From Bugula neritina (taxonomy: Eukaryota; Bryozoa; Gymnolaemata; Cheilostomatida; Bugulidae), in contig OZ037766.1 of assembly GCA_964035545.1 (NCBI GenBank), positions 3,342,501 to 3,406,500 of the forward strand: a DNA stretch of 64,000 nucleotides, written 5' to 3'. Numbering within the stretch: the first letter of the stretch is position 1; each line of letters begins with the position of its first letter. Of the stretch, positions 9,244-53,087 are shown piece by piece. Made by a program: the position numbers and the translations under genes. The notes below the pieces were generated by a model, which searched no databases, was not told where the DNA came from, and worked only from the letters and a program-made list of their open reading frames with translations.

Positions 9244-9390
9244 ATGGCAGAACCCAACACAAATCAGGAAAACCCTGATGATGGTGGAACAGAAGTGGAG
9301 GAAACTGAGCCTGTAATTAACAGAGTATTTGAAATTCAGGACAGCCGGAGTAGACTTATGACTCAAAATAAACTATCTTTGTTCCTATAA
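9244..9390 (+). CDS. P1: tiny acidic protein of the AEP/NQE-DDGG family
   Basis: This is a 48-codon frame in an exon that starts at 9235 after the acceptor CTCTTTTAG. The context is a good Kozak (purine at -3, G at +4). It has no signal peptide, membrane segment or cysteine. Residues 3-20 hold the family core AEP..NQENPDDGGTEVEE; residues 25-31 hold a second shared motif, INR..EI; a 17-residue tail follows. P1 and P2 differ at seven codons in the 13-codon stretch QENPDDGGTEVEE, all synonymous, which argues for selection on the protein. A poly(A) signal AATAAA lies near 9449. P4 (25852) is its copy in unit B. I do not recognise the family and give no function. Confidence 0.75.
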   Translation: MAEPNTNQENPDDGGTEVEETEPVINRVFEIQDSRSRLMTQNKLSLFL

Positions 9391-9459
9391 TAAGCTGCAC
9401 AGGGTAGAAATGAAAATTTAGAAATTGGGATTTAAAAGCTAAAAAGACAAATAAAGCAA

Positions 9460-11370
9460 TAGCTATAATGTCGCAAAAAGTTAGGATCGTGTTTTGTTAG
9501 AATATAATATACAATATGATCATTATTCTCTAGCATATCATATTTTGCCCAGTGTGTTGAATTTTTTTTAGCTATAAATGCTCTCCATTTGCAATTTTGA
9601 GACTAATATAGTGTAAGAGGCAGACTAATGATATTAAAAATAATCCACAGTCTCACAGTTGTATATATAAGTATATTTCATGTGTATCTTTTATATGTGT
9701 GTTTATTTTCTTCTACAATTCTAAAACATGCTTCACAAAAACTCTAATAGTTTATTTCACTGTTGTACTGAGCAATATTTATATAAACAGCTATAATCAA
9801 TAGTACAAAGTATGCTGTTATACATACAAACAAAATTATGAATAAGTTGGACAAATTGTGACTTGATGAAAATGGTTCTATATACATTGTATATTCCTAT
9901 AATAGCTTCTTATTATTGCAGCTTAAACCAGCTATCGTGAGAATAAATGGTATTTATAAAATAGCAGCTACAGTTAATCGAAAACTTGCTAAAACGCATA
10001 TTTTGTTTTCTTTATTTATTTAATAAATTGCTTTTGACACAAATAAACAAAATTTTGGAATAATTATGAATTATTTTGACAAATTTTGACCAAGTGAGTT
10101 CATGCCTAAACCCACTATTGATTTTTACTTGGAGATCAACAGCTTATTGTTTATCGATTATTAAGAATGTATAATTGACTGCCTTTTCTTATTACAGGTG
10201 CCCGTAGCGATGCTGTGTGCAGATTTTATAACATTATATAGTACAATCATACATTGTATGTAGAACAATTTTTATTTTCCGATGGTTTCCTGTGACAAAC
10301 TTTAAACTGCAAGTTGTTTCTCTCATATGTGTGAAGGCTATGTGTAGAGAGTTTGGACTTGGTTTGACTGAGTCAACACTTTTCAAAAATCATTCACTCA
10401 CTGTATATAACTAAGAACAAAGGTTTTTGTAGATAGAAGATGGAGAGTACGATAATAATTTATGATAACATGCACATATAATATTTGTCTGTAGTAAGTG
10501 TTGCTATTGCAGCCATCAGTTCTTAATGGTTACTGTTGGTCCAACAAGGCCGATATTTTAATATGTGCTCTTCGGTTGAGCAACATGTTATTAACACTAT
10601 TAGTAGAGTGCAATGATGTGCATTTTGTGAAAACCTGATTTATATATCAAAACAATAAATGTAATTTTTGTTGTTTATGTGTAATTTATACATTAATGAA
10701 CACAAAATAAACATTAGTTATATTAATATTCAATGAACTATATTATGATAATAATTAAGAATCTTTTCTGCGTTCCAAGTAAGTTTAGGGCTAAAAATGG
10801 GACATGGTGTGCAGATTTTCATGCGAATAATATGCTGAGCTCGTGTGGGTTAATGATTTAATTGGCTGATTACCATTTGGTGAGCACACTATTTTTATTA
10901 CAATTTACGTTTTAGCTTTTAGAGAACTGAATTAAAACAGTTTCCTATAGTTTGCATTTCTATTTTTATAACAGTCAAAGTCACTTTGCCGATGACGTAG
11001 TTTAAAAACAAACGTTTCTAGGCGAGCAGTAAAGTTAGACTCCAAGATCATTAGCTAATAAATTTCCGCACTTACAACACACGCGTTGTGTGTGGCAACT
11101 AGGTCGCTTCCAGGACGAGATTTCAAAATTTTTGAACTCTTTTTGGATAAGCCACCTTGTGTGGCCCTGTATAGAGCGAAATGTATTATAGTGCAATGCA
11201 CAAGCAAAAATGTATCACAGCCATCTATTCTCATATCATTGTCATAATAATAGCTAGCTCAACACTCAACATATGAATAGTTGGATTTACCCATGCATCT
11301 ATAATACGTGTTTCAGTATATGCATTGGAGGGAATCAAGAAAGTATTGTGTTGTCATGGTCATATAATAT
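9460..11370. other. 3' flank of P1; no gene supported
   Basis: This is duplicated in unit B at about 26.05-29.08 kb. The frame at 26829 in unit B (76 codons) is broken here by a stop and indels, so it is not a conserved protein. A perfect dyad TTGACTGAGTCAA lies at 10364-10376 and again in unit B at 26991-27003. Confidence 0.55.
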
Positions 11371-11371
11371 G

Positions 11372-11740
11372 TTGACTGGGTCAAAGGATCAGTTCAGCTT
11401 TTGCTCACTGTTCTGATACTGTGGCAAGCACCAAATCCAAATCAATTCATGATCCTTTATCCTACTTCCCTGAGCTAGATTAAACTATATATACATGTTA
11501 TATATACATGTTATGTATAAATAGTGACAGAACCTAAGTACACCCAGAGCAAGGCAGAGGTGTAAGGAGAGCAAATTACTACTTATTATTCAAGAATAAT
11601 TATATTTTCTACTATAGGAATAGCTATATCCTACTATAATATAATACAGGAATATATTCTTTGGAATAAGAATCATTGTATAGGTAACTATAGGAGAACC
11701 ACATTACAGCACGAAATTATATTATCAACTGCCCAATCAG
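11372..11740 (+). promoter_or_regulatory. P2 promoter and leader exon
   Basis: The dyad TTGACTGGGTCAA (11372-11384) lies about 140 bp before a TATA box (TGTATAAATA, about 11514-11523). The untranslated leader ends at CAATCAG|GTGAGT, with its last base at 11740. The intron is 11741-12168 and carries a SINE. The same arrangement occurs for P5 in unit B. Confidence 0.65.
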
Positions 11741-11852
11741 GTGAGTAGAATAAGTAAGTTATAATATAATGGAGAAAAGATGTATAGTTACTATTTGGTA
11801 TGTTCTATAACGTTGCATTATGTAATAGAGTAATTATCTGGTGCAAATCTAG

Positions 11853-12057
11853 GAAGCAGCCGTGGTCTAGGGGTTAGAGCTTTTGCCTATTAGGCACAAA
11901 ATTATGGGTTTGAGCCAAATTTGTGATGTTAGGAAAAGCATGCAGTTATATAATTGCTCTTGTGCCTCATCTGAATAAGTTCTTAGTACAATTTAACAAA
12001 AACGTCTTCCATCAGGGGTTCTCACAGGGATGGTGACTATATAAACTTGCGTGAGTT
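11853..12057 (+). mobile_element. tRNA-derived SINE inside the P2 intron
   Basis: The element starts with a tRNA-like head: box A-like GTGGTCTAGGGGTTAGAGC (11862-11880) and box B-like GGGTTTGAGCC (11906-11916). A tail of about 130 bp includes GTTAGGAAAAGCATGCAGT. It is flanked by a 19-bp target-site duplication (11834-11852 and 12058-12076), 18 of 19 bases equal (TTATCTGGTGCAAATCTAG against ...CATATCTAG). The unit B copy (about 29562-29768) has the better box B GGGTTCGAGCC. Insertion therefore came before the segmental duplication. Confidence 0.8.
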
Positions 12058-12176
12058 TTATCTGGTGCATATCTAGCAATCAAATCTAGTTGGCACACAC
12101 TGTTTCAAGTTAATCCATTTTTGAGAAATTTTATACAAAATATCATAGAACATTATTTTATACTATAGTATACAAA

Positions 12177-12293
12177 ATGGCAGAACCTATCAAAAACCAG
12201 GAGAATCCAGATGATGGTGGTACAGAGGTAGAAGAAATTGTGACTATAAACAGAATGTCAGAAATAAACAACATCTGTGTCGGCAGAAACTGA
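12177..12293 (+). CDS. P2: tiny acidic protein of the AEP/NQE-DDGG family
   Basis: This is a 38-codon frame in an exon starting at 12169 after the acceptor ACTATAG, with a good Kozak (CAAAATGG). It carries the core AEPIKNQENPDDGGTEVEE, then a VTINRMSEI segment with the second motif INR..EI, and ends in a short Asn/Cys/Arg tail (one Cys at residue 34). It has no signal peptide or membrane segment. The N-terminal half is strongly acidic and the tail slightly basic. P5 in unit B is identical except for an Ile-to-Arg change at residue 30. Function unknown. Confidence 0.75.
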   Translation: MAEPIKNQENPDDGGTEVEEIVTINRMSEINNICVGRN

Positions 12294-12962
12294 AAGAAAA
12301 TAGGCTATACAGCATATTATGTAATAGAATGAATGAAAAAATTGACTAATTTCTAATATTCTCCATTATAAATTGTGCACTACAACTCAAAACTCAAGCT
12401 ATAATAGTTATAAGAATATATTAGAAATTAAGCTAACAATTTATTAAATCTCTAGGACCTATATTTTAGGTAATATGTGAATTGTAATAATTGCATGCTT
12501 ATAGTAAACTAGCTATTGCGTACCAGTGATCATTGGCATCCTTGCCTACAATAGTCATAACTTTCATGCTATCTGTGTTTTGTATGAGCATTGAATTTTT
12601 CTTTTAGTTTATGAAGTGATGCAATACTACATATAATACTGTTAGCTTTAAATTCGTTATTTTAACTGTAGCTTTATTTTCACTTTTCCATCTTTTTGTA
12701 TATATAACATGTAGAGATATTATTGTCAGCTACACATGAATAGCAGGGTGAATGTGAATATTAAAGTATAGAAAACTGATTTAGTATTCTTTGAATAATT
12801 GAATAGGATAATTGAATAGGATACAAAGAATAGAAAAACTGCTTAGGTAACTTTGCTTGGTTGAGTACACAAATAAAGTCAACACATAAGTGCTCTCAGA
12901 ATTTCGGAATAGATAGCTTAAAACTGCCAACTCCTGGTTTCTCATCTGAATAACACACCACA

Positions 12963-13112
12963 TGACTCAATAAATAACAAATGACATCATTCTCTCTCTA
13001 ACCTCAGGTATTGTCAGTGTGTAAGAGTCTATTTGGAGTTGTGTTACCTTGAATTAGATGAGTTTCTTAAGAAAACCTTTCAAGTTTACACACTGCAATA
13101 TTTATATAAAAC
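12963..13112 (+). promoter_or_regulatory. Conserved block with AP-1 site and TATA, no coding exon
   Basis: The order is TGACTCA (12964-12970), then ATTGTCAGTGTGTAAGAGT, then ATTTGGAGTTGTGTTACCTT (from 13031), then a TATA-like TTTATATAAAA (about 13100-13110). The block recurs in the same order at about 19.12-19.22, 30.67-30.83, 37.44-37.61 and 42.47-42.64 kb. The frames across it are not conserved, so it looks like a promoter or control block rather than coding sequence. Confidence 0.45.
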
Positions 13113-13267
13113 GTCTAACCTACACAATTCCATAACATTTCACTACACTGCACTCTATATGATACATATTTACATTTATCTCTCATTACTTTGGAGGACA
13201 TGCAATAAAACTGAACTGTTTCTTTCTTAGCAAAAACTACAATTACAGTTTTTTAAAGCTGCAGTAT

Positions 13268-13301
13268 TGACTTGGTCAACATTTGTCAAACTCGTTCATA
13301 C
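13268..13301 (+). promoter_or_regulatory. TTGACTTGGTCAACATTTGT element
   Basis: The dyad TTGACTTGGTCAA is followed by CATTTGTCAAACTCGTTCATA. Near copies occur, all in this orientation, at 8554, 14245, 19404, 21456, 30988, 31969, 37777, 38502, 42787, 43552, and (with CAAACATTTAGAA at the end) 41011 and 53358. Repeated TTGTCAA half-sites within one element (14245, 38502, 43552) suggest protein-binding arrays. Confidence 0.5.
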
Positions 13302-14244
13302 TTTTCCCCATTCAAATAGACAAATATATGCTAAGGTTTGTTATTTTTATAATATTATAATTCACACTTTTCACTTCAATTAAATATATTAGGTCCGCTT
13401 GCATGATGCAAGTCCACTTGTCAATACTTACACCCCTATATAGGCTAACATCTTTAAAAAATATACTGTATTATAAGCTATATATTAGATAAGAGGCATT
13501 ATATAATGATTATTATAAGAATAAACTCTAGAAAAGAAATGATGATGCACTGCCAATATAATATTAGTATAGTTTCATCAAAAGCAAAATAAAACAGAAT
13601 AAATTAATTTATATGTTAATGTAAACAAATAAATGTAACATATATAACTAAAAACCATGCAAATGCAATAAAATATATGAGGACAGTAATCTGAACAGTA
13701 GATAATAATCCATAAGACTATGCTCATTGTCTTATGATTCTACATTGATAAACAGTGTCTTAACATTGGTAAGTAAGCTTGTCAAATAATTAATTTTATA
13801 TACCTTTATATATTACAACTGTTTTTTTATCCTGTATGTCTTCCTGTATTAGCCAATGCAATGCCTGTTTAGACAGTCTGAAAAAAAACTTTTTTTTGAT
13901 TAACTAACATACCTTACAGTCTAAGTCTTGTATCTAAAACCATTTTAGCCTAATTTACTAAATGTCAAAATGATCAAATAAATCATATAATAAATTTAGA
14001 ATTTGCCCACAAAGCTGTGCTATAATTTTTAGATTAAATAAATGTATATATTGAGAGATTCACCATCATATATGCCTACACAAAATTATACTTTTATAAA
14101 ACCTGAAATTTTATATTTCTCCTGCACTTTATTTTATAAACTCTCTGAAATATGATGAATAATGTTTAAATAAGAACAAATAACAATAATAAATAAACTA
14201 TAAGCCAGCCCCCAATAAAAAGAATATAATATAGACTTGATATA

Positions 14245-14302
14245 TGACTTGGTCAACATCTGTCAACTCTTGTCAACATTTGTCAAACTTGTTCATAACT
14301 TT
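14245..14302 (+). promoter_or_regulatory. Extended dyad-led element with repeated TGTCAA half-sites
   Basis: GACTTGGTCAACATCTGTCAA is followed by a second TTGTCAACATTTGTCAAAC and then TTGTTCATAACTT. It is the second member of a pair about 1 kb apart (with 13268). The same pairing occurs at 30988/31969, 37777/38502 and 42787/43552. Confidence 0.45.
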
Positions 14303-15063
14303 ATACTTTTTTGCATTGAAATATTATTTTGCTTCTACATTTGTCTTTTTATTTTAAGATCAGCATAATAAGCAATGAAGTTGCATTCTATACTAAAAAC
14401 TTCCCTTTTTGTAAATTATTTGTCGTAAGACGGAAAATTTCTATATTTTAACTGTTGCTATTTTATACTTTTTCTTGACAGTGTATTGTTGTCGCCTGTA
14501 TAACAACAAATATTCGTGATGAATCATTATTATTAATTAAAATTTGCTTACCAAATAAATTTTAAAATTTTTTAGCATAAATCTATAAATTCTGATTGGT
14601 TTGTTGGTTTTTTTTTTAATTTGCTTATCTTATAGCCCAAAATTGAATATAAATGTATACTGAAGAAAATACGTACTTTAATTAAGGTATTATACAATTA
14701 CAAATAATCATGCAGACAATGTTTAGCTGGTAATAATTTGCAAAATGTTCAAGTTTTATTATTTGATCAATGATCAAAATCATGCAATAACAGCGCTGCA
14801 AGAGGTAAACTCATTTCATAATTTAATACCATCTATATAAGTTGCTCGAACATTATTATAGTATGATTTTTAGCCTAGATATTTAAAGTGGTGTTTTAAA
14901 TTAAACTTACATATATTGAAATACAAATCATCAAAATAAGTATTTAATAAATTGCAATTTCCTATAGACAGTTTATGTCCCATCTTAAATAAAAATAGCT
15001 TGTAACTCCCTATAATGCGTAGGGGCATCATATATCAGCATTATATATTTATATATTGTATAC

Positions 15064-15093
15064 ATTGTAACTCATCTATAGATGAGTTACAAT
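15064..15093. repeat. 30-bp perfect palindrome
   Basis: ATTGTAACTCATCTA is followed at once by its reverse complement. Unit B keeps only the right half (around 32.70 kb), so one arm was gained or lost after duplication. It could form a hairpin or cruciform; no role is evident. Confidence 0.8.
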
Positions 15094-16408: not shown

Positions 16409-17404
16409 GTAAAAACCTACACTATATATACTATATTATGTTATGATATATTATATTATATAGTATGTATTAGATAGGAAACACTAGTATACAGCATATT
16501 ATAGTATTAATAGTGATGAGTGTCCAGGTATTTAGATAAGATTTCCTAATAGAATACTGCCTATACCCTTTCTGTAAGTTGATGATATATAATATAGTCA
16601 CATTGGATATGACAAAATAGACAAAGTATATTCTAGCTTTTAGTAAATATTTTTAGGTGATGTTGCTCCCTCTTGCTACAGGCCAGCACCTCATGCTCTA
16701 ATGAATAGAATTGTGTTAGGCTACAGTCTATAAACAATTATAAGCCGCAGTGTCAATGTATAATAAGTGGGCTGAATCACTCACACACTAGCTGCAAAGT
16801 CACTACATTTTACTCTTAGCTGACATCTTATATGGCTCCTATAAATTTTTTTAAAAGGCAAGTAATGACTGATATTGCGCATGAGCAATGTTGGAAAATC
16901 CAATATACCATACAGTTACAAAACAGACAGAATTGCTCAACACCGTTTCATTGCCTTATCTGACGACTACATTACAATATTGTTGGATGACTTCCAATAA
17001 GGAAGTCAACTTGGTTTAAATCTGTCAGAGTATAGCTCACAACAATAGAGTTGTTTACTATAAGCTTACACCCCTCATCCTGACTTCCTGACTAGTGTTG
17101 CATAATATAGAAAAACCGGGTATTTCTTGCCTCAATTGATGAGCCAAAAGAAACATTAATTGTATGAAATTTTTTCTATTACAAAGCAATATACCATATA
17201 ATATATTTATACTCCTGTAACACTTAACTAACCGTACTTTTATAAAAACAAATCATACTTTTTATAGAATTATAAAATTATAAACAATGGCAACAAGTGT
17301 CGTAAAAATAAACATGCACTAGCTTATTTATAGTAAGCCATAGTTTAATAGGGTATATAAGTAACAATTGATCACCTAATCTTACAATTCTACTCAATCG
17401 CATC

Positions 17405-17640
17405 CGATCGCACAAGTTGGAAAAGCAAGCTATAAAATGCCATCTCACAGCTGCAGGGAAGAAAAACTTCTCAGTGCAGTTACTGAAAACAGGGCATGCA
17501 GAAGGGCTCAGGTCACCACCAACAGACCGGGTCCACTTACAAGTGTAACCTTTGTGGCAAGGACTACCACTTACACATTGGTCTGCCCAGCCACAGGCTC
17601 TGCTGCTCAGCCTAATCATAAGGTGCATTCCATGCGTTGG
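17405..17640 (+). mobile_element. LINE 3' end fragment (non-LTR retrotransposon)
   Basis: In one frame GATCGC... reads DRTSWKSKL before a stop. Further on, in another frame, a zinc-finger-like KCNLCGKDYHLHIGLPSH appears. Both are hallmarks of the C-terminal end of many LINE ORF2 proteins. Frame breaks between them show decay. The copy in unit B (about 35.58-35.77 kb) carries a further deletion. The 120-codon frame starting at 17437 is in the wrong register and is not a gene. Confidence 0.65.
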
Positions 17641-17746: not shown

Positions 17747-18087
17747 TTGACTTGGTCAATCAATCTAGTGGGGGTTATTCCACGTTATGTGTGAGTTAAA
17801 TGGTGAAATACATTTTCCTATTGACAAACAAAGACAGTCTACTTTACTACATACTCATACTACTCACACTGGCTGCACTAATCCTTCATCACTTCATTCC
17901 ATTCATTTCATTCCAAGGGTGAAGTGAGCAAGCTATACTATACATGTTTACTATATCTGCAGGTAATGCTTTATAATTTATATTAATATAGGAACAGTAT
18001 AAAGCTATACCCTGAAACAGTGAATAGTCTGTAATAGAAGAACTATAGACGCAAACAAATAAATCCTAACAGTCACATTCAGCTCAG
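17747..18087 (+). promoter_or_regulatory. P3 proximal promoter and leader exon
   Basis: The dyad TTGACTTGGTCAA (17747-17759) lies upstream of a leader GAACAGTATAAAGCTATACC (from about 17991) that ends CAGCTCAG|GTGAGT, last base 18087. The intron is 18088-18339 (252 bp). The same dyad and leader occur before P6 (39910; exon end 40267), P7 (45761; 46086) and the coding-less unit B copy (35880; 36268). Confidence 0.6.
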
Positions 18088-18345
18088 GTGAGTAAAATAA
18101 GTTCCTATATTATATAATACAGTGACGGTATATTGTAGTTAGATTGGTGTAATATGTTGGTTTATATAATATATGATATAAATTATAATATATAGATTGT
18201 ATATGTTTTCAGTAATAGAATACTCACCGCTATATTAGTTAACTCATTTATAGAGAAGTGCATACATCTTATTATAACATATTATCATTTTATACTGTAG
18301 CTGCAAATATAACAGCACGTGTTATACTTTATGCTGTAGTTCAAG

Positions 18346-18462: not shown

Positions 18463-20374
18463 AAGACAATTATAGACAGCATATACAATTGACCAATCAT
18501 AAGCATGCTGATATTCCTTATTATATTATATATTTCTATATATAAAACCAAGTACCTTGCTATTTATGGGATAGAATATTATTTATGTTGAATAAATTTT
18601 ACTATAGTAATTTAAGACAATAATATACTAGATAAGCTGCTATTTCATAAATTTATCCTTATATCAAATTATGAAAAATCATACCATGCATGCAGTTATA
18701 TAGCAAAAATAACAATTATTGTAGAAGTTCACACCGCCTGCTCCTTAGATATATGAACTATTAGTTACATATAATAAAATTGTTTACTTCAACTTTTCAA
18801 ATTTAACTGTGGCTTTAATTTCAACTTTCCAACTTTTTGCATATCATAGGATGTTAGAAATATACTATTGTGTACATATGCAGTAATTATTAGCAATTAT
18901 ATAACATGCATATGATATTAGTATAGAAAACTGCCCCAGTACTCTTTGTTTCAATCACACTGCATGGTACACAAAATGAAGTCCACAAATTTACTCATGA
19001 TTTCAGAAATAATAGCTCAAACTTGCCAACTATTGGTTTACATCTGAATAACATTGACATAATTATATTACTGAACTTTCAATAAATGAGATCGTCCTCT
19101 CACTAATTCCTAAACATAATATTGTCAGTGTTTAGAGTTTATTTGGAGTTGTGCTAACTTGGATTAGGTTAGTTTATAATAGCAACCTTATCATATATTT
19201 ATACATATATGTGCAATGTTTATATAAAATATCTCACCTTATTATACATATATTTTTCATATAACATTTTACTACACTCTATATCATGATGCATTCTTAT
19301 ACATGCATTGATATATCATTATTCTTTATGATATAAAAACCTATATTGTTTATCTCTTCACAAGCATGCAATGACTGTATATATAGTAACTTTAAACTTG
19401 TGCTGACTTGGTCAAGATTTGTCAAACTCGTTCATATTTTTGTTCAAATGCTCTAATTATTAAGGTAAAATTTGTATACAAGTTTATTAGAATTATTTGA
19501 TCTATAACTTTCAAATAAGACCTTATTCTGATCAGTTTTGCCTATTATATACACATAAGTAGCTTGTAAAAATAAGCACGAAAACAAACAATATAAATTC
19601 ATCATCTAAAAAAATTACATATTCAAAATATGATATATTTATTTATGACAAATATTATGCTTTAGCAATAATATTAATCTATAAAAGGAATGTTCATACA
19701 GTTGGAAGGCTAGTTTTATTACTATATCAGAGTTGTGTTTCCTTAACTCTGGTCTTAAAAAATCAATTTTACATGCTTCAATGGCTTTTAATGTCAAACA
19801 AATCATTTTTTGCATAAGTTTTAAATATGATTCATGATAATTTCTTGCACATAAAATAAATGAACTGATCTGAAACTGAACTGAAATGAAAATCAAATGA
19901 ACTGGTGAATATAGTAATCTTCAATTTAACTAATACATGTGTGCGAATATATAATATATGGAGCAGCAAGTGGTTAAAAGTATACTTATTGTATCTCATA
20001 TTATATAGGCTTACATGCAGTAAAGTATTTAGCCATAATTCTTCCTCATATACTCGCAAAGCGATCTCATAGGTCTATATATATAATTTGCTCTCATACC
20101 TATCATTATTTATGCTCTTATAGGTCTGTAGCTAATACCAGAGATTTTATTTATCATTTTATTCAACATTTTGAGCATATTTGCAGCTAAGGGAAAAGCA
20201 CAATTTTTCTCTCAAATGTATAAATATTGGTTGCCAGTAAAAAAAGAGCTCAATAAGTCAGATATACTACTTTCAAGTTATCTGGTGAAAAATAAATAAT
20301 TACTATATAACTATTAAAACAAATTTATTTAAAAAAAATTATACTGTTGCTAGGTTTTTTAAATTTCATCTTTT

Positions 20375-25851: not shown

Positions 25852-25998
25852 ATGGCAGAACCCAACACAAATCAGGAAAACCCTGATGATGGTGGAACAG
25901 AAGTGGAGGAAACTGAGCCTGTAATTAACAGAGTATTTGAAATTCAGGACAGCCAGAGTAGACTTATCACTCAGGATAAACTACCTCTGTTCCTATAA
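25852..25998 (+). CDS. P4: tiny acidic protein of the AEP/NQE-DDGG family
   Basis: This is the 48-codon unit B copy of P1. Its exon starts at 25843 after CTCTTTTAG. Residues 1-34 are identical to P1. The tail has four amino-acid changes (Arg to Gln, Met to Ile, Asn to Asp, Ser to Pro), so the core is held and the tail drifts. The gene is interrupted only in its intron by the 3.7-kb element. A poly(A) signal AATAAA lies near 26057. Confidence 0.7.
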   Translation: MAEPNTNQENPDDGGTEVEETEPVINRVFEIQDSQSRLITQDKLPLFL

Positions 25999-28363: not shown

Positions 28364-28950
28364 TTGATTGATTGATTTATTACATATCACAAACATGACA
28401 ACACGTTGCAAAATTCAGTGTAAATACTGGCTATAATAAGTAGGAATGAACAAAAATAAGAGAAAAAAATCAAAACTCTGTTGGATTATTTAAAATAAAA
28501 GCTCATTTAAAGTATTTACAAGATGTCGCAAGAAGCTATCTCTGCCCCATGCCCCTTTATATTTGATGGTTCGATATCTTCCAGAAGGGCATTGACTCAG
28601 AAATTTATTGATGAAATGGTCATTGTTCATTATATATTTGATGGCAAGTTCTTTAGTGAGTTTCTGAATGTGCAAATCAATGTTTAGATACTCAATTCCG
28701 AGTTTTGAGCAATCTTTGAGAATTCTTCGAATAGCCTTTTTATCACTGGCATAGATACAAGTAAAAATAGTAGGTAGACAATAGGCGATGCGGAACATGA
28801 TGAAACTTTTGAATAACATATTTGCTAGAGGTTTAGAGCTAAGATACGCAACATTCTTCACAATATACATTCTTCTTGATACTGTTGTTACTACTGATTG
28901 TACATGTTCATGAAATCTCAAATTCTGATCCACTAACACACACTAACACT
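28364..28950 (-). mobile_element. LINE 3' end with reverse-transcriptase C-terminus
   Basis: A 149-codon minus-strand frame (28490-28939) reads like the segment after the RT domain of CR1/L2/jockey-type LINEs: LRFHEHVQSVV, then SRRMYIVKN, then a LFKSFIMFRIAYCLPTIF stretch, then KKAIRRILKDCSK. The 3' end carries (CAAT)n-type repeats (TGATTGATTGATT on the plus strand from 28364), typical of that LINE group. Unit A lacks it. Only a 5'-truncated tail end is present, so it cannot move on its own. Confidence 0.8.
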
Positions 28951-29086: not shown

Positions 29087-29456
29087 TTGACTGGGTCAAA
29101 GGGTCAGTTCAGCTTTTGTTCACTGTTCGTAGAGTAGTGAAACAAGTACCAAATCCAAATCAATTCATGATCCTTTATCCTACTTCCCTGAGCTAGATTA
29201 AACTATATATACACATGTTATCTATAAATACAGTGACATAACATAAGTACACCCAGAGCAAGGCAGAGGTGCAAAGAGAGAAAATTACTACTTATAATTC
29301 AAGAAAAAGTTATATTTTCTACTATCTGAATAGCTTATATATCCGACTACAATATAATACAGGAATATATTATTCTTTGGAATAAGAATCATTGTATAGG
29401 CAACAATAGGAGAACTACATTACAGCACGAAATTATATTATCAACTGCTCAATCAG
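29087..29456 (+). promoter_or_regulatory. P5 promoter and leader exon
   Basis: The dyad TTGACTGGGTCAA (29087-29099), TATA box (TCTATAAATA, 29221-29230) and leader ending CAATCAG|GTGAGT (last base 29456) are as in P2. The intron 29457-29879 contains the shared SINE. Confidence 0.65.
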
Positions 29457-29561
29457 GTGAGTAGAATAAGTTATAATATAATGGAGAAAAGATGTATAGT
29501 TACTATTTGGTATGTTCTACGTTGCATTATGTAATAGAGTAATTATCTGGTGCAAATCTAT

Positions 29562-29887: not shown

Positions 29888-30004
29888 ATGGCCGAACCTA
29901 TCAAAAACCAGGAGAATCCAGATGATGGTGGTACAGAGGTAGAAGAAATTGTGACTATAAACAGGATGTCAGAAAGAAACAACATCTGTGTCGGCAGAAA
30001 CTGA
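29888..30004 (+). CDS. P5: tiny acidic protein of the AEP/NQE-DDGG family
   Basis: This is the 38-codon unit B copy of P2, in an exon starting at 29880 after ACTGTAG. The sequence equals P2 except Arg for Ile at residue 30; other base changes in the frame (for example GCA to GCC at Ala2) are silent. Function unknown. Confidence 0.75.
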   Translation: MAEPIKNQENPDDGGTEVEEIVTINRMSERNNICVGRN

Positions 30005-35296: not shown

Positions 35297-35581
35297 TACA
35301 GCCTCAATTGAAGAGTCAAAAGAAACATTAATTGTATGAAATTTTTTCCATTACAAGCAATATACCATATAATATATTTATTATACTCCTGTAACACTTA
35401 ACTAACCGTACTTTTATAAAAACAAATCATACTTTTTATACAATTATCAAATTATAAACAATGGCAACAAGTGTCATAAAAATAAACATGCACTAGCTTA
35501 TTTATAGTAAGCTATAGTTTATGGGGTATATAAGTAATAATTAATCACCTAATCTTACAATTCTACTCAATCGCATCCGAT

Positions 35582-35775
35582 CGCGCAAGTTGGAAAAGCA
35601 AGCTATAAAATGCCATCTCACAGCTGCAGGGAAGAAAAACTTCTCAGTGCAGCTGCTGAAAACAGGGCACACAGAAGGGCTCAGGTCACCACCAACAGAC
35701 CGGGTTCACTTACAAGTGTGACCTTTGTGGCAAGGACTACCACTCAGCCCAACCGTAAGGTGCATTCCATGCGTT
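35582..35775 (+). mobile_element. LINE 3' end fragment, unit B copy
   Basis: This is the counterpart of the fragment at 17405, with a further deletion after the ACTACCAC segment. Confidence 0.6.
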
Positions 35776-35879: not shown

Positions 35880-36268
35880 TTGACTTGGTCAATCAATCTA
35901 GTGTGCGTTATCCCATGTTATGTGTGGGTTATCCCATGTTATGTGTGATCTGCGAATTAAACTACGTTGAAATACATTTTCCTATTCACAAACGTATGTA
36001 AACGTAGACTTTCTTTGTTTGTGTTTGTGTTTGTTACTCATACTACTCACACTGGCTGTACTAATTCTTCATTACTTCATTGCATTCATTTCATTCCAAG
36101 GGTGAAGTGAGCAAGCTATCCTACATGTTTACTATATCTGCAGGTAATGCTTTATAATTTATATTAATATAGGAACAGTATAAAGCTATACCCTGAAACA
36201 GTGAATAGTCTGTAATAGAAGAACTATAGACACAAACAAAGAACTCCTAAAAGCTTCATTCAGCTCAG
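35880..36268 (+). promoter_or_regulatory. Proximal promoter and leader exon without a coding exon
   Basis: The dyad at 35880-35892 and the leader ending CAGCTCAG|GTGAGT at 36268 are intact. Downstream, where unit A has the P3 coding exon, the sequence jumps from the GCATACATCTAG segment (about 36.9 kb) to the P3 3' flank. The unit is therefore a promoter with no known product. Confidence 0.6.
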
Positions 36269-36360
36269 GTGAGTAAAATAAGTTTCTATATAATAATATA
36301 ATACAGTAATAGTATATTGTAGTTAGAATGATGTATGTTAGTTTATATATGATAATAATT

Positions 36361-36808
36361 GAAGACCTCAAAGGAAAAATGGCATATGTCCAATTTTTCG
36401 AATTTTCACAAATTGAAAATTAAAGTTTGGAAACTTGCAACTGCTATCGATATGAATCAATTCTAACCAAATTTCATATTATGGTTTTTGAACATGTTTC
36501 AAACAACTAGACAAAAGGAAATTTGACCAAGTTTACATAAAATACATAATTTGCTAGCAATTTGCGCACCGTCATTGGTCAATTGTTATCACATGACTGG
36601 ACATAAGTTATTTTTCTTTTGTGATGACTGGACATAGGTCTTTGTTGCTTTGGGGTGGGTTTCAAATCCAGCCTTAAAACCATGGACAAAATTTGTTTTT
36701 TTCTTTGATAATTTTATGACTAAAACTTTAATACTTGAGCTATCCAAGGGAAGAAAAATCTCATTTTTTTTGAAAATGGACAAATGTCGTTTTTCTTTTG
36801 AGGTCTTC
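36361..36808. mobile_element. 448-bp MITE with long imperfect TIRs
   Basis: The ends are GAAGACCTCAAAGGAAAAA and, on the other strand, GAAGACCTCAAAAGAAAAA; inverted similarity extends for about 37 bp. It is flanked by AATT on both sides (36357-36360, 36809-36812), while unit A has a single AATT at the empty site (about 18.18 kb). There is no coding sequence. The superfamily is not recognised. Confidence 0.85.
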
Positions 36809-36879
36809 AATTATAATATAAATATTGTATATGTTTTCAGCAATAGAATGCTCACTACTACTATAGTTATAAACTCATT

Positions 36880-39909: not shown

Positions 39910-40267
39910 TTGACTTGGTCAATCTGATGCAGTGGGTTATTCTCATGTTGTGTGTATGTATGTGTAATGTGTATGTGTGCAATTTTGCCTTACTATTATA
40001 ACTTACAATATTACTGTGCCTGAGTATTATATATAAAGCTCTAAAGTATAAAAAAACACTCGCTGTAATCGCTTCATTCAGTGTCATTCTAACTGTGAAC
40101 AGGGCAAGTTACTGCTTACTAAATACATACATTTTGCATGATAATATATTATAACATATTAATGTATAGGAACAGTATATACAGTTATACCCTGAAACAT
40201 TGGATTATAGTCTGAAATAGAAGAACTGAACACAAACAAATAAATCTAAAAGTCACATTCAGCTCAG
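39910..40267 (+). promoter_or_regulatory. P6 proximal promoter and leader exon
   Basis: The dyad TTGACTTGGTCAA (39910-39922), a TATA-like TTATATATAAAG (about 40028-40039) and a leader ending CAGCTCAG|GTGAGT at 40267 match the P3 and P7 units. A second donor-like CTGTAG|GTAAGAG at 40384 matches the P8 leader end at 51395. The P6 upstream region thus joins two leader types. Confidence 0.5.
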
Positions 40268-40671
40268 GTGAGTAAAATATGTTCCTATACACAACTGAAT
40301 ACTATAATACAGTGAAGATACAAAATATTTAATGTGCTTCAGCTGTAAATCAATTATATGGTATTTAAAAATACATATACTGTAGGTAAGAGTTTAAATT
40401 ATACTAAATATTATATTATATATTAACCAATTTAACATTATCATTATATAAAGAAACAGTATATATATAGTATTTAGACTAATTTTCAGTAACTTGATAT
40501 GATGAAGAAAAGTGTATTATAATGTTTATAATATTTTCAACATTATTGTATCACTCAGACATACATTATGTGCGAGAGATTAATTTTTCTATACTTGGGC
40601 AAAATATACCCAATTTTTGTGCTGTTCAGATTTATTCCTAGAAAAATTAATTTTGTTTTAGAGTTTTCAAC

Positions 40672-40752
40672 ATGGCCTCAGCAGAACCTATCAAGAACCA
40701 GGAACAGCCAGATGATGGTGGGACTGAGGTGGAGGAAGCTGAGATTATATAA
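40672..40752 (+). CDS. P6: shortest form of the AEP/NQE-DDGG family
   Basis: This is a 26-codon frame in an exon starting at 40662 after TTGTTTTAG, Kozak CAACATGG. It begins MASAEPIKNQEQPDDGGTEV and then stops after a short acidic/hydrophobic end (EEAEII). Compared with P2 it has an extra Ser-Ala after Met-Ala and Gln for Asn at the E.P position, and it lacks the INR..EI part. An AATAAA lies near 40883. P8 is its close relative. Function unknown. Confidence 0.65.
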   Translation: MASAEPIKNQEQPDDGGTEVEEAEII

Positions 40753-42349: not shown

Positions 42350-44680
42350 GATAACACTGAAGTAACTTTGATTGATTGAGTACACAAAGTAAAGTCCATA
42401 CATTCTCTCAGAGTTTTTTCAGCCACTCTTGGTTTCTCATCATATGGATAACACATCACATGACTTTATCATCAATAAATAACAAATGACATCACCCTCT
42501 CACTAACTAGCTGAAGATATTTTCAGTGTGTATAAGAGTCTATTTGGAGTTGTGTTACCTTGAATTAGATGAGTTTCCAGAAACTGTTATAATAATATTA
42601 TTATGATTATACACATATAGCAGTATTTATATAAAACATCTCACCCTATACACATTTTCATATAACATTTTACTATACTGCACTCTACATTATACATATT
42701 TAATTTATACCATTGCTCTTCATGGTAGACAAATGGAGTTGTTTCTCACTTATGCTAATGAACTATACAATGGTCTTAGACTTGTACTAACTTGGTCAAC
42801 ATCTGTCAAACTCGTTCATATTTTCCATATTCAAATGCTTTTTATACTATAAATTATGGTTTATTACTTTTGTGATATAATTCATGCTTTAATTCTACCA
42901 CAATTAAATTTTAGATTAGCTCATAAAACGTACTGCATCATTTCCATCATTCGCATTACTCGAATGAACTTTTCATTTTTACTCAGACTTACATATATAT
43001 AATGACAATTAGCCAACATTTGCCAAACTTGTTCATATCTTGAAATATATTCTTTGCATTAAAATATTATTTTGCTTCTATATGTATTTTTTCATTGTAA
43101 TAAGGCCAGCATAAATAATAAGCAAAAATGTTGTACTGATCCTTGATATATAATACCTGATGCATGATGTAATATTCTGTGAGGAAGTCTAACAAAAAGA
43201 TTTTTCTAGTATACAGACCAATTCAATTCATGTGCACAGTCTAAATCTTCCATTTGAATCCAAGCATTTTTAGTTCATATGCCACATTAGCCTCATAACA
43301 ATCAATCAAATGAAAATAGACTATGTATGCAAAGTTTATCCAAAGGTGTTTAACTTATAAATTAAGTCAACTTATTGAAAATTTTGACTACCTATATAGG
43401 CAGTACTGCTTATTATATAAAGCAGTAAACTTGGTATTTGCTCCACATTTACTTTATACATTTTTCTACAAGATAATAAATAGTAATAGAATTATAGTAT
43501 CAAAGAACATTAATAAAAATATTATAAAGTTTCACAGCAAGAATAGTATTTAGTGACTCGGTCAACATTGGTCAAACTCTGTCAACATTTGTCTAACTTG
43601 TTCATAACTTCGAAATACCTTTTTGCATTAAAATCATATTTTAATTTTAAATGTATTATTTTTAATTGCAAGGCAAGAAAAATAAGCAAAGAGTTAGTAG
43701 GTATTTATACGAAAAGCTTTTTTTTATAAAATATAATCTGCAGGTATCATAAGAAGCAAATAATATTTTTTACTCTTGAGAGTAATTTATGTTGCCCTTA
43801 TATAAATACAAGTATTTGTGGACTTTTTATTAATTTAAATATTTCTATCAAATAGATTTGAGAGCTTTTCAGCATGAATTAATATTTTATAGATTCTGAC
43901 TGGTTTGATTGGTTTCTTACTTAATTTGTTACTATCGTTACTGCAATATGTAACAGAAATGTATATGCTAAAGAAACTGTGCTTTAATTAAAACAGGATA
44001 CAGTAACAGTCGTGCAGCTAATATATATAACTAATTTCTCTGATGATAATGCAAATTATTCAAATTTTTGGACTGCTTAAATAATGATCAAAATCATAAC
44101 AGCTAGTATATAAAAGGCGAAAACATTTTATAATTAAATACTTATTCATATTAATTGCGCTAAACATTGTTAGCATTACTTTAGCCTGGACTTTCAAAAA
44201 ATTATTTTAAATTGAAATTAATAAGTGAGATATCAATTCAAAATAAATACTTATTAAATTGCAAAGCTGCTTCAAATTATTTATGTTAACCACAAAAGTG
44301 TCAATTACCAGCATTATATGTACAAAAATTTACATTGTATCCTACACCATATGGGACTTTGTAATATCATGTTATGTTAATTTAAGATTACTTTAATAAA
44401 ATCGTTTTCTCCTGATGTAATCTAGACTACTATTATTAGATTTTTACTATTGACAAACATAGTCAGCAAAGCATATTCTTTTAATTTATTATAACCAGTA
44501 TTTACATTGAGTTTTGCAACATATTTTCATGTTTGTGATATGTAAGAAATAAATCAATCAATCAATAATAAAAAGCAACCCAGATCTCACCCTAGCTCTT
44601 CCCAGTTGAAAGACATTCACCAAAAAGCAAGCAATTTAGTCTATGAGTATTATATATCCCTTTAAAATTATCATCAACTT
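42350..44680. other. Spacer, third copy of the 12.8-16.0 kb region
   Basis: It holds the conserved TATA block (about 42.47-42.64 kb) and dyad-led elements at 42787, 43002 (weak) and 43552. No gene is supported. Confidence 0.5.
44485..44567 (+). mobile_element. LINE 3' tail fragment
   Basis: CCAGTATTTACATTGAG through TTTGTGATATGTAAGAAATA and (AATC)n matches, on the opposite strand, the 3' end of the LINE at 28364. Only the last 80 bases or so are present. Confidence 0.65.
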
Positions 44681-45760: not shown

Positions 45761-46086
45761 TTGACTTAGTCAATCCATCTAGTGTGGGTTATTCCCAAGC
45801 CCATTATGAGCTCAATGTTAGATAATAAATATTATATATACTTGCTTATACACCACAAGAGTGAGGGAATAAGTATAAGTACGTACAGTACACTGCTGAT
45901 TACTTTATTCATGTCATTCCAAGTGTGAGGACAGCAGTTCCCTTATCACTTATATAGCTACAGATATTGTGTTATAACATATTAATATAGGAACAGTATA
46001 AAGTTATACCCTGAAACAGTGAATATAGTCTGCAATAGAAGAACTGAACACAAACAAATAAATCCTAAAAGTCACATTCAGCTCAG
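45761..46086 (+). promoter_or_regulatory. P7 proximal promoter and leader exon
   Basis: TTGACTTAGTCAA (45761-45773) lies upstream of the leader GAACAGTATAAAGTTATACC (from about 45988), which ends CAGCTCAG|GTGAGT at 46086. The intron is 46087-46345 (259 bp). Confidence 0.6.
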
Positions 46087-46351
46087 GTGAGTAAAATAAG
46101 TTCCTACATTATAATATTATAGTGATGGTATATTGTAGTTAGAATGGTGTATGTATGATATATAAATTATAATGATATGTAGATATGTAGATAGTATAAT
46201 ATGTTTTTAGCAATAAAATCTTAATCGTTTACATCACTTGTTACAGTTGACCCAATTTTAGGAAGTGTATATACAACTTATTACGACGTATTATTTTTTA
46301 TATACTGTAGAACAAAATATCACATAATATTATTTTATACTGTAGTACAAG

Positions 46352-46489: not shown

Positions 46490-46799
46490 AAGACAGCCAG
46501 TTGACTGATCATAAAGACGCTGATATCTATATAACATAGCACATGCCCAATGAAAGTTGTTGTTTTATAGAAACATGTATATACTATCTTATTATCTATA
46601 TACTCTTTAGAATATAATTAAAGAAGTGAGCTCAAAAGGTTTAACATATTATTATACTTTTGGTTTTGTTTAGATTGCTTTTTTATACAAGCTGTAAATT
46701 ATGGTACATGTACATTACGTGTGTTTAGCAAAGATGTTAAGCTGCACCTTCTATATAGCCATATTTTACTATGATGTGTGAATCAAAATAGTGCCTGTG

Positions 46800-47172
46800 G
46801 CTGTGCAGACCATTGTGTGCTTAGTAGTCCTTGCCACAAAGGTTACACTTGTAAGTGGACCCCGTCTGTTGGTGGTGACCTGAGCCCTTCTGTGTGTCGC
46901 CTCTTTTTGGCAGCTGCACTGAAAAATTTTTCTTCATCAACTGTGAGATAATATTTTAGTTTGCTCTTCAACTCGTGTGATCAAATGAGACATCCCCCAG
47001 GACGCTGTATTGATGCCAATAGTCGTCATTTTCCTTGTGCAGACATCTTTGAAGTGTAGCTGAGGTCGCCCATGACTTCGGCTACTGCTGGTTAGTTCAC
47101 TATGTAGAATATCTTTGGGAATGCGTCCTTTGTCCATGTGTCGAACATGACCAAGCCATCGCAGTCAGCATT
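46800..47172 (-). mobile_element. LINE fragment with RT C-terminal signature
   Basis: On the minus strand the frame reads LRWLGHVRHMDKGRIPKDIL, then GRPQLHFKDVC, the well-known end region of many LINE ORF2 proteins. It is followed after breaks by the KCNLCGK finger-like segment, shared with the fragments at 17405 and 35582. The flanking sequence is ordinary AT-rich DNA. Confidence 0.85.
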
Positions 47173-47179
47173 TATGCTA

Positions 47180-48060: not shown

Positions 48061-48066
48061 AATTGA

Positions 48067-48790: not shown

Positions 48791-49082
48791 TTGTGACAGT
48801 CAAAATATTGTGTTGACTGAGTCAAAATGAGACAAAATAAATTATAGTCTTAAAAGTACTGATATCACCGCATTATTCAACTAAATCAAAACATACACAG
48901 ACCATAAGAGCAAGAGCTCACACCAAAAATCACTAATAAGAGTTTGGCAGTGGCATATAACAGTCTACAATATTCAAAGTACGTACACACAGAAGTCAAT
49001 CAGGACTTGGTTAGTTGAGCTGTGACTTGTCTATATAATATAATATAGTAGATATAACTTGACAAAACAACAGACACTGCAG
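48791..49082 (+). promoter_or_regulatory. Leader unit without its own coding exon (second before P8)
   Basis: The composite element (TTGTGACAGTCAAAATATTG, then TTGACTGAGTCAA at 48813-48825) precedes a TATA-like CTATATAATATAA (about 49031) and a leader ending CACTGCAG|GTAAGA at 49082. Confidence 0.45.
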
Positions 49083-49944: not shown

Positions 49945-50610
49945 GTTTCAATATGGTAATTATACTGTATAGTGTGAAGGTGTCCTCACAATAATATTGC
50001 AATATTATCTCAATTGAGCTATCAGGTGACTATTATCCACTCCAGCTGAAAAATTATGGCAGAGGAATTTTCAACACTGCCAGATACATATATGTAATCT
50101 CATTTGTTATGTTAAATTCATAGTCATAGTCATTGGGAATTCCCTTCTATTACCTTCTACAGTAATCGACACTCGCAGTGATTGGCTGTATAATATAGGA
50201 ATTGCATTATAATGTATATCATGGTATGTTCTGTCGTGCAATACAGCCTTATACTATATTCTATTAGTATATAGTTTTAAATAATGTGAAATATATTCAA
50301 TAGTTTCAATATGGCAGCTACTGTGGTGTACTTTCACAATAATATTCTAATATTATTTCAATTGGACCAACAGATATCTAGCATTATCCACTCCTGTTTG
50401 AGAAATATCATGCTGCATGCATCACATGGCAGAACAACGCAGCTACTCTACTCCAATGCACTTCTACTTTGCTATTATTAGCCCCATTTGTTATATTAAA
50501 GAGGCAACTGTCATTGGGACTTCCCTTCTATATTATCTCATAGTACCACACCTCTCAGTGATTGGCTGTATAGAATTGCATTCTAATGTTATATTATATA
50601 TTCTATTATA
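49945..50610 (+). repeat. Diverged tandem duplication of about 330 bp
   Basis: Both halves (about 49.95-50.23 and 50.30-50.60 kb) share CAATATGG, CACAATAATATT, TTATCCACTCC, CATTTGTTAT, TTCCCTTCTAT and the block GTGATTGGCTGTATA in the same order. The frame of 103 codons over the right half is not kept in the left half. Confidence 0.65.
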
Positions 50611-51089
50611 TACACTACAGTCTTATATTATAGGTTGTATAGTAGTAAATACTTTTAAATCATATTATGTTATATTTAACTGCAATATAGTATTTTATGG
50701 TGCATTATATGGTAATCCAGAAATGTAATATATATATTATTTGGAACTTAATTACATTATGTTTCATCTTACTATAATAGTCAGAGTATTATGTTGTGCC
50801 TAATTAAATAATATAGTAGCTAGTATGATTAGTTGCACATTCTTATATAAATTAAAAAATATATATACAAATATTATATATTAATGGTAAAGGGAAGAAA
50901 TTATATATGAGTTAACCAATGGTATGCTTGCACAATTAGGCCATGGTAACTGCGTTATAAATTTGTGAAACCATGTGAAACTAAATAATGCTAATAATTT
51001 CTGCACTTTGATCATACTACATTCTACAGTTGTGTAGCAGTAGCACATGCAGGTGGCTATAACCTTTACAGCTTTACATAAGATTAATC

Positions 51090-51395
51090 TTGTGACAGAC
51101 AAAATATTTTATTGACTGAGTCAAAATTTTAGACAGCAAAAAAACTCTTGAGGGTACTGATCATTAACATCAATCAGCCAATAGTAAACACTTCATATGA
51201 ACTCACAAGCCATGTTTTTACTTTAGAGTAGATGAACCCCAGCTACTAATAGAAGAACAACACATCAAAAGACACCTAGCAAATTCTAACACTAGCAAAT
51301 AACAAACAAATATTGTAAGTCCTGAAACGCAAAAGGAGATTCCATGATTTATCAAGATCAGCTATAAATCAACAGCATTGTATGGTAGACTGCAG
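51090..51395 (+). promoter_or_regulatory. P8 promoter and leader exon
   Basis: The composite element (TTGTGACAGACAAAATATTT, then TTGACTGAGTCAA at 51112-51124) and a CCAAT motif (about 51179) precede a leader ending AGACTGCAG|GTAAGAG at 51395. No clear TATA box was seen. The intron runs to 52996 (1601 bp) and contains a TIR element. Confidence 0.55.
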
Positions 51396-51420
51396 GTAAG
51401 AGTTTAAGCTATACTATATA

Positions 51421-52738
51421 GGGGTAACGGGGGCACAACGGTCATAGGGGTACAAAAAGCCGGCCAAATTGTGAGAGAACTTATTAACTTAGAGTTGTGA
51501 TTTTTTTTTCATAAAAAGATATTGACATAATTATTCAGCTTTTGTAGTTTCAACACTTGCGGAACATACGTGTTGAAAAGGCGAGTAAAAAGCTGTTTTT
51601 ACCTACTTTTTGTAAATTTTTTAGGACGTCGTTAAAGCCTCATAACTTTTTACACTCAAAGGCAAGAAGCCTATAGATTTTACTAATATTGTTGCCATTG
51701 CTTGTCTCTACAATGCTCAACTAGTATAACAGCAAACACTGAAATAAAATTTCCTTGAGGCATATTTATTCTCAATTTGGCCACACGGGGCACAATGGGC
51801 CACGCTGACTGGGGCACAATGGGCCACCTAATTATTGCACCCTGATCACTGTTATTAGTTTGTTTGCCTAAAAAGTTGGTTGAACTGTTACTAAAATCTA
51901 TAGATATAGCCATTTCTGACCTTTTTGTAAAATATCAAAGACATCATGGTAAGACTACAAAACTACAAGTTGAAGCTCCCCTAATATATACATCTGGTGA
52001 GGTTAAAGCTTTGCAATTTTATACATAATACAAAACACTCTGCTGTTTCTACTAGTAGATTATAGTCATGATAATCATTATATATTACACCATTGAGGGA
52101 ATATACATGTATTTGACTGAAATAAATTGTGATTTGCTCATTTGCTTCCCCTCTCCCCTCCGTACTCCAGTGACAAACCTCAGTCATGCATGCACCTTAG
52201 CTACAATTCATAGAAAAAAGTCTACTCGGATTTTTGTAGTACACGTTACTGAAGTTTTTTTTTGATAAACGTTGCTCTGAAGTGAAAATAACAGAACATT
52301 TTTAGTTCTAAACAGTAGGTAATGATAATGGCACTGCAGAACCGAGTGACGTGCGTTTGATTTTGCCTTCCTCTGCTAACCGTAGTAACACAAACTGTAC
52401 AGCTAAAACATGAATTTTGCTGTAGATCTGAAAGAGAATCTTTATTTATTTGTAATATTAAATAAATAAAAATTAGATGTAACAAAATATACGCAAAATT
52501 TCAATATATATTTGTTGTGTCTCATTGTACCCCGGTACCGGGGCACAATGGGCCGATTTTTTTGTCGTGAACATTTCATTATTCTGAAAGTTGTGAGAGA
52601 GATAGAAACAACAAACTGATACCTGTAATAGACAACATATGCAGCATTAAGACTAAAGATTATTGAACTAGTAACTTGAAAAACAGACGAATGAGAGCAA
52701 CAAATGCAAAATTCGGCCCGTTGTGCCCCCGTTACCCC
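51421..52738. mobile_element. 1.3-kb TIR element in the P8 intron, TA target duplication
   Basis: The TIR GGGGTAACGGGGGCACAACG at the left is matched by its reverse complement at the right end, flanked by TA (51419-51420, 52739-52740). The P6 intron shows the empty site (ATACTAAATATTATATT). Inside, GGGGCACAATGGGCC occurs at about 51787, 51811 and 52540, the last as one arm of a palindrome around GGTACC (about 52522-52549). No transposase frame is present, so it is non-autonomous. Confidence 0.9.
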
Positions 52739-53006
52739 TATTATGTATTAGCCCATAACATTATTATATATAGAGAAATATTATACTATAATTTAGACTG
52801 CTTTTCAATAACTTGATGGTGAAGAAAAGTGTATATAAGGCCTATTTATATTTTCAACTTTATTGTATCATTCAGACATACATTATGTATTATGTATTAC
52901 ATTATGTATTATATTATGTACATTTTTTTCTACTTTAGCAAAAAACACCCCATTTTTGTGCTGTTCAGTTTTATTCCTAGAAAAATGTTGTTTTAGAGTT
53001 TTAAAC

Positions 53007-53087
53007 ATGGCCTCAGCAGAACCTATCAAGAACCAAGAACAGCCAGATGATGGTGGTACTGAGGTGGAGGAGATTGAGACAACATAA
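53007..53087 (+). CDS. P8: short form of the AEP/NQE-DDGG family
   Basis: This is a 26-codon frame in an exon starting at 52997 after TTGTTTTAG. It begins MASAEPIKNQEQPDDGGTEV and ends EEIETT. It differs from P6 mainly in the last four codons; core differences are silent (GAA/GAG, GGG/GGT, CAG/CAA). An AATAAA lies near 53250. Function unknown. Confidence 0.7.
   Translation: MASAEPIKNQEQPDDGGTEVEEIETT

Follow-up and report, generated by a model that had tools for sequence, protein, structure and literature searches.

The window, a stretch of 64,000 nucleotides (nt) on chromosome 2 of the bryozoan Bugula neritina (positions 3342501-3406500, in an assembly of 215,847,546 bases), contains a tandem array of eight tiny open reading frames (ORFs), each in frame from ATG to stop and every one on the plus strand. 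As stated in a preliminary description of this DNA, all eight frames of 26-48 codons exist and the core AEP..NQE.PDDGGTEVEE is found in 8/8. The copies fall into four types. Type A consists of A1 (9244..9390) and its recent duplicate A2 (25852..25998), both encoding 48 amino acids (aa), and type B of B1 (12177..12293) and its recent duplicate B2 (29888..30004), both of 38 aa. Type C comprises C1 (18346..18462, 38 aa) and C2 (46352..46489, 45 aa); type D is the shortest form, with 26 aa in both D1 (40672..40752) and D2 (53007..53087). The products are acidic (isoelectric points of 4.05-4.40, computed for A1, B1, C1, C2, D1 and D2), and the lack of a signal peptide, also part of the preliminary description, fits the sequences as judged by inspection only. 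Neighbouring ATGs are 2.9-10.8 kb apart, with one ORF per unit. The A-B-C stretch recurs at an offset of 17-18 kb, which indicates that the array has grown by tandem duplication. Blocks that occur only in this array lie between the genes (12847-13317, 14245-14957, 18967-19441, 42362-42836 and 43554-44264). In three comparisons of old units they are 70-76% identical, whereas divergence is far greater in the introns beside the coding exons. No long frame common to the blocks was seen, and they are possibly conserved non-coding elements.

Upstream of the coding exons, a second conserved feature is visible. A 179-nt block located 227-405 nt before the C1 ATG has four genomic copies, none of them outside the array; they belong to C1, C2, D1 and a ninth gene, Cx, which has lost its coding exon. 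Aligned, the C/D block shows TATAAA (TATACA in D1), a leader and then CTCAG|GTGAGTAAAATA. This array-specific TATA/exon 1/donor block spans 17951..18113 in C1 (TATAAA at 17998, donor GT at 18088), 45953..46112 in C2 (donor GT at 46087) and 36132..36294 in Cx (donor GT at 36269); the exon 1/donor block of D1 lies at 40140..40289 (donor GT at 40268). The counterpart donor of B1 and B2 is CAG|GTGAGTAGAATAAGT, and the 90 nt of putative non-coding exon 1 before it occupy 11651..11740 in B1 (donor GT at 11741) and 29367..29456 in B2 (donor GT at 29457), their starts being unmapped. All these features are on the plus strand. B1 and B2 match the profile of the C/D block only weakly (E = 0.38 and 0.0014), which does not apply to the donor itself: in B1, B2, C1, C2, D1 and Cx alike, the conserved block ends with CAG|GTGAGT. 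The plus strand of the window holds seven perfect MAG|GTRAGT sites, six of which are these exon-1 donors, and the minus strand holds one; 200 first-order Markov replicates of the window gave a mean of 0.89 and a maximum of three. The six donors are related by duplication and hence do not count as six independent events. A leader exon with its donor can be placed for five of the eight genes (B1, B2, C1, C2 and D1), plus Cx. The 90 nt before the donor are free of ATG in 6/6. The distance from donor to ATG is 258-436 nt, and for genes with both intron ends placed, the intron would measure about 250-430 nt. At the other end of the genes, AATAAA or ATTAAA is found within 163 nt past the stop in 7/8 (in B2, the first is at 472 nt), a weak count because the DNA is AT-rich and no chance control was made.

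The preliminary description also placed a splice acceptor just upstream of each ORF and a good Kozak context around its start. Indeed, a [TC]AG is present 6-10 nt before the ATG in all eight copies (9 nt in A1, 8 in B1, 6 in C1 and 10 in D1), and a purine occupies position -3 in 8/8. A [TC]AG at 3-13 nt upstream is, however, common among the ATGs of the window (374/1192), so the acceptor alone is weak evidence. On sequence grounds, the conservation of the exon-1 donor, absent from the preliminary description, is the stronger evidence. Across types A-H, of which E-H lie elsewhere in the genome (see below), the acceptor-to-ATG length is 9, 8, 6, 10, 10, 10, 8 and 11 nt, i.e., 0, 2, 0, 1, 1, 1, 2 and 2 modulo 3. 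As this length is not constant modulo 3, the conserved ATG is most likely the translation start.

The same measurements bear on the idea that the ORFs belong to larger proteins as coding exons, namely as a last exon or as a first exon spliced onward from an inner donor. The [TC]AG just upstream and a GAG|GT inside GTEVEE in the B, C, D and E copies would suit such exons. The phase between acceptor and core nevertheless differs by type, also when the nearer AG of A and H is used, and the 90 nt before the mapped donors, besides having no ATG, contain stops in two or three frames. Moreover, the G preceding the inner GT is lost in A, F, G and H, yet EVEE or EVVE is kept; the EVEE codons change silently; and the units showed no other coding exon that is both long and conserved. 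A coding exon of a larger protein is therefore improbable and was set aside on the phase and the ATG-less leader.

The ninth gene, Cx, near 36.3 kb, keeps the promoter, exon 1 and the donor. A counterpart of C1 18280-18646, which includes the coding exon, was not found in it. Its intron carries an element of ~480 bp with terminal inverted repeats (36344..36824, plus strand), a dispersed repeat with 13 other copies that match over about 440-464 nt (89-97% identity) and with additional partial copies. This element is a later insertion into the Cx intron.

The core is under strong purifying selection, strongest over the first ~20 residues. The observation that A1 and B1 differ at 7 of the 13 codons QENPDDGGTEVEE, every change being silent, is exact. 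Over the 17-codon core, the same two copies show nine silent and two replacing differences, giving proportions of synonymous (pS) and nonsynonymous (pN) differences of 0.89 and 0.05, respectively (Nei-Gojobori); for D1 and E1 the counts are nine and zero. By codon position 1/2/3, the differences number 0/2/9 for A1-B1 and 0/0/9 for D1-E1. Among nine representatives, pS is at least 0.60 in 27/36 pairs, and pN ranges from 0.00 to 0.31 in 36/36. When equal numbers of changes were placed at random, 7 (A1-B1), 0 (D1-E1) and 5 (A1-E1) per 100,000 trials were as conservative, trials creating a stop being scored as not conservative. A GY codon model on 12 distinct 17-codon cores, out of 17 open copies, gave a ratio of nonsynonymous to synonymous rates (omega) of 0.110, with a log-likelihood of -309.83 versus -335.93 for the same tree with omega set to 1, a difference of 26 log units. 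All these values are to be read with a short core and copies of shared history in mind. The preliminary description had argued for selection on the peptide and had named a ratio near 1 as the outcome that would speak against it; across the copies of this one B. neritina genome, the pS and pN values, the codon model and the random-placement trials all support such selection. Antisense coding was judged improbable, as the silent changes at third positions of the plus frame would be first positions of the antisense codon-by-codon frame.

It could be objected that the copies are alike only because a non-functional repeat was recently duplicated or gene-converted: the array was made by tandem duplication, and the cores of C1 and C2 are identical. 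However, the surroundings of the core have diverged. The A1 and B1 cores are identical at 49/60 nt, their flanks at 47% over an upstream segment of 150 nt that ends 10 nt short of the ATG and at 47% over 200 nt past the stop; between types, the former segment is 33-58% identical in forced alignments. Together with the high pS and low pN of most pairs, the omega of 0.11 the presence of relatives on three chromosomes and the lack of a dispersed-repeat pattern, this makes a non-functional repeat highly improbable.

The segments following the core behave differently from type to type. Type D stops six codons past GTEV. A database relative, P0013 (ETEPIQLTEYLKVRTARVDL), corresponds to the A1 tail when that is translated in another frame (LTEYLKFRTAGVDL), and a second one, P0014, ends with NSGQPD, close to the NSGQPE from the third frame of the A1 tail. 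Both proteins carry an A-type core followed by the A1 tail in two other frames. The tails of types A and D are frame-broken. The tails of B, C and E stay in frame, as do those of the relatives P0001 and P0002, and look partly constrained over their first 12 codons (B1-E1, pS 0.77 and pN 0.26; B1-C1, one silent and no replacing difference). Such constraint is not seen in the very recent pair A1-A2, which has two silent and four replacing differences in the tail. Types G and H have in common a helix-like tail (WENIMKAYLEKY, WERMIEIYLRKY), which over 11 codons gives no clear selection signal (pS 0.48, pN 0.34); this tail is missing from two relatives of type G, P0018 and P0019, in which the core is retained. 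In an AlphaFold model of P0007, an H-type long-form relative, built with 20 sequences, one helix is predicted at residues 25-45 (block means 81-85), and the first 30 residues, with values of 55-62, form a low-confidence core.

The loss of tails in types A and D also agrees with a peptide that acts only during its synthesis, as a nascent chain or leader ORF, or with an RNA that is itself the product, the peptide being a by-product. The ORF is short and 5'-proximal, and the array-only inter-gene blocks of 0.4-0.7 kb, with their 70-76% identity between old units, leave room for some non-coding part that may matter. On the other hand, no long ORF that could be the regulated frame was seen downstream of the copies, the constraint falls on the N-terminal amino acids, the helix-like tail is common to the long forms of two subfamilies, and the window has no Rfam match at gathering score. 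This explanation is considered unlikely, though less so than the two discussed above.

The family is not restricted to the array. Searches of the genome with B1, A1, G, F and H1 yielded at least 18 loci on three chromosomes, 17 of them open and ten outside the window array. The assembly searched has 295 contigs, compared with 320 published scaffolds (PMC11480708), so small ones may be missing. The genome report gives a span of 216.00 Mb for tzBugNeri2.1 and lengths of 33.58, 32.42 and 17.72 Mb for chromosomes 2, 3 and 5 (PMC11480708); in the assembly searched, these measure 33,575,671, 32,418,041 and 17,720,077 bases. On chromosome 2, 0.7 Mb from the array, a type E pair (42 aa) is located at 2.624 and 2.627 Mb. 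Chromosome 5 carries the single copies F (40 aa, at 4.126 Mb) and G (59 aa, at 2.4385 Mb), and chromosome 3 an array of six type H copies (59 aa, 28.767-28.781 Mb), one of which is broken into two pieces, one with two TAG. Membership of type E is secure (E = 1.2e-8). By E-value alone, F and G are only weakly linked to the array (best 0.029 and 0.11); G and H match each other with E values of 5e-5 to 6e-5. F, G and H are assigned to the family by what they have in common with the array: the DGGTEV core, the small size of the ORF and an acceptor located 8-11 nt upstream of the ATG. A donor-like site of their own also recurs in 4/5 H copies. A transposon was ruled out as the identity of the family by copy number and by the array-specific blocks: instead of a dispersed element in high copy number, the 215.8 Mb contain 18 loci as a lower bound, and three tandem groups account for 16 of them.

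Among database matches at E values up to 10 (2/2, 19/29 and 18/3940 candidates), 19 different proteins match the family. A single one is named, EB796_017616 of B. neritina (P0009), and none of the matched proteins is a named relative from another animal. The remaining 18 are JGI sequences without a name, possibly Bugula host DNA within symbiont metagenomes. Read from the alignments, close relatives exist for types A, C, D, E, G and H, and none for F. EB796_017616 is 90% identical to an ORF of the chromosome 3 subfamily (L027) over 98% of it and has the core PDDGGTEVVE. In contrast to the array forms, it is a long form with ten extra N-terminal residues, which are partly intronic by the exon model used here. 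Gene prediction in the B. neritina draft genome used AUGUSTUS, guided by hints from the transcriptome (PMC7576161); such hints do not show transcription of EB796_017616 itself. The view that these ORFs belong to a real small-protein family is strengthened by the relatives found elsewhere in the genome and in other sources. The expectation that annotation would miss them is borne out only in part: the database searches gave no named entry for the short array forms, and a longer relative is annotated as EB796_017616. Similarly, the family is undescribed in that the core is printed in no paper found, although one long-form relative has an uncharacterised database entry. The literature search returned no paper containing the 14-residue core string, DDGGTEVEE or EB796_017616, and nothing for Bugula neritina combined with transcriptome and small protein; for bryozoan small open reading frames, it returned one paper, to judge from its title on another subject. 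DGGTEVVE appears in four plant papers, in one of them as NAD-malate dehydrogenase, and was judged a chance match. Neither the short forms A1, B1, D2 and F nor the proteins P0009 and P0011 have a Pfam match up to E = 10. With a long form, L020, the Pfam scan gave chance-level matches only and the PDB search weak helix matches only, the best being 'm4D2' (E = 0.012).

Taken together, the units are probably translated two-exon microprotein genes that act as peptides, with a probability of roughly 0.7. Their 26-48 aa and omega of 0.110 agree with a microprotein encoded by a small ORF, i.e., one of fewer than 100 codons under purifying selection as a peptide. A TATA-type promoter, as seen for C1, C2 and Cx, would give a short pre-mRNA, in which an ATG-less leader exon is spliced to a second exon whose 5' end lies 6-10 nt upstream of the first ATG in the message. 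The predicted junctions join 11740 to 12169 (B1), 18087 to 18340 (C1), 40267 to 40662 (D1) and 46086 to 46346 (C2). With such a leader and such an exon border, the ribosome is expected to start at the conserved MAEP or MASAEP and to make one peptide of 26-48 residues or, for the forms on chromosome 3 and one of those on chromosome 5, of about 59 residues. Because no signal peptide is apparent, this peptide is expected in the cytosol or nucleus. The functional unit would be mainly the first ~20 residues, an acidic and probably disordered motif, NQExPDDGGTEVEE. Most probably, this core binds a conserved surface of a larger protein and either blocks that protein or changes its targets. In the long forms, the helix would provide an additional contact or a means of dimerization, and the tandem copies would serve dosage or stage-specific control. 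Taken by itself, a short linear motif binding a larger protein has about an even chance of being the mechanism; it fits a 20-residue acidic, probably disordered core, a tail that is dispensable in some copies and the apparent lack of a signal peptide.

Several points weigh against this explanation. The acceptor was assigned by rule, as the nearest [TC]AG 3-13 nt upstream of the ATG, and types A and H carry a second AG 2 nt before the ATG, although the phases are unequal with that AG too. Exon 1 was not found with the B/C/D profile for A1 and A2 (only 250 nt searched), D2 (in 1.5 kb upstream), E1, E2, F, G and H1-H5; these genes may have a different leader, or some of them may be in decay. The least clear pS/pN pairs are those with F, G and H, as in B1-H1 (pS 0.40, pN 0.26) and C1-H1 (pS 0.34, pN 0.28). 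The C1 and C2 cores are identical at 60/60 nt, silent sites included, and their nearby introns at 72%, which suggests that gene conversion may also keep copies alike. Some database relatives have an altered core (P0001, G14D; P0012, E17Q; P0017), and the tail of the very recent pair E1-E2 has no silent excess (zero silent, three replacing). The AlphaFold model of P0007 is poor overall (mean predicted local distance difference test score, 66.2), and no binding partner of the core peptide was found. Of the partner motifs considered (CK2 site, B56, KEAP1 and LC8), none seems to fit every member.

Small acidic intracellular regulators such as beta-thymosins and PKI are small, charged, largely disordered cytosolic proteins using a short motif. 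The bryozoan peptides resemble them in size, charge and probable disorder; they differ in that the four short forms named above, like P0009 and P0011, have no Pfam match up to E = 10. The nearest precedent in kind, with no sequence relation claimed, is offered by the Pri (Tarsal-less, Mille-pattes) peptides, which have no signal peptide. In a paper on these arthropod peptides, they are described as intracellular, 11-32 aa long, with one short conserved sequence and no predicted structure, and as encoded by four ORFs on one polycistronic mRNA that share LDPTGQY (PMC11475943). The likeness lies in tiny intracellular peptides with one short conserved sequence, the location of the bryozoan ones being inferred. 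Membership of the Pri family fails on the motif and on the polycistronic layout: the bryozoan units have one ORF each, with their own leader exon in 5/8, and another, acidic motif; reading the sequences of the eight ORFs and of the listed relatives reveals no LDPTGQY. By analogy, the family, with at least 17 open genes distributed over five genomic places and tails that can be exchanged, might form a bryozoan peptide switch that titrates or re-targets a single essential intracellular partner, as Pri does Ubr3. Such a switch, in which short forms would be the bare motif and long forms motif plus helix, with antagonistic or graded outputs and an origin independent of the arthropod peptides, is a speculative and rather doubtful extension. 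Bryozoan genomes are few, and a codon-constrained multigene family of 26-48 residues is easily missed by annotation and directly testable. In addition, a very short motif that is kept while the rest drifts through other frames in some copies bears on the minimum size of a functional protein.

Other features were noted in and near the window. Fragments resembling non-LTR (long terminal repeat) reverse transcriptases, recognized by eye, are scattered in the array (46790-46990, 17398-17601, 35571-35740 and, on the minus strand, 28493-28942); the first is ~82% identical to the second and third, in inverted order. A secreted-looking, repetitive protein rich in Asn, Tyr, Gly and Arg, with an N-terminal hydrophobic stretch and no Pfam match, is encoded at 2415-2726 on the plus strand, and an 82% identical DNA copy of it lies upstream of the window (L024:3910-4272). 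On the minus strand, 55484-56374 is an uninterrupted ORF of 296 aa with a hydrophobic middle and a basic end, which matches nothing in Pfam up to E = 10 and no sequence in the PDB up to E = 1. The end of the window (59972-63998) is occupied by a Gypsy-like retrotransposon in several frames: reverse transcriptase and RNase H are above the Pfam cut-offs, gag and protease parts are below them, and an integrase-like frame is recognizable by eye. In front of this element, 116 nt (59811-59926) recur at 99% identity just past the window (L025:166-281), possibly as part of the other terminal repeat. Just downstream of the window, L025:1683-9900 contains a tandem duplication of ~4 kb, 86% identical. 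Finally, the type E pair is adjoined by a minus-strand frame at the far end of its locus (L006, ~2.628 Mb on chromosome 2), which by eye we take to resemble a testis-specific serine kinase.

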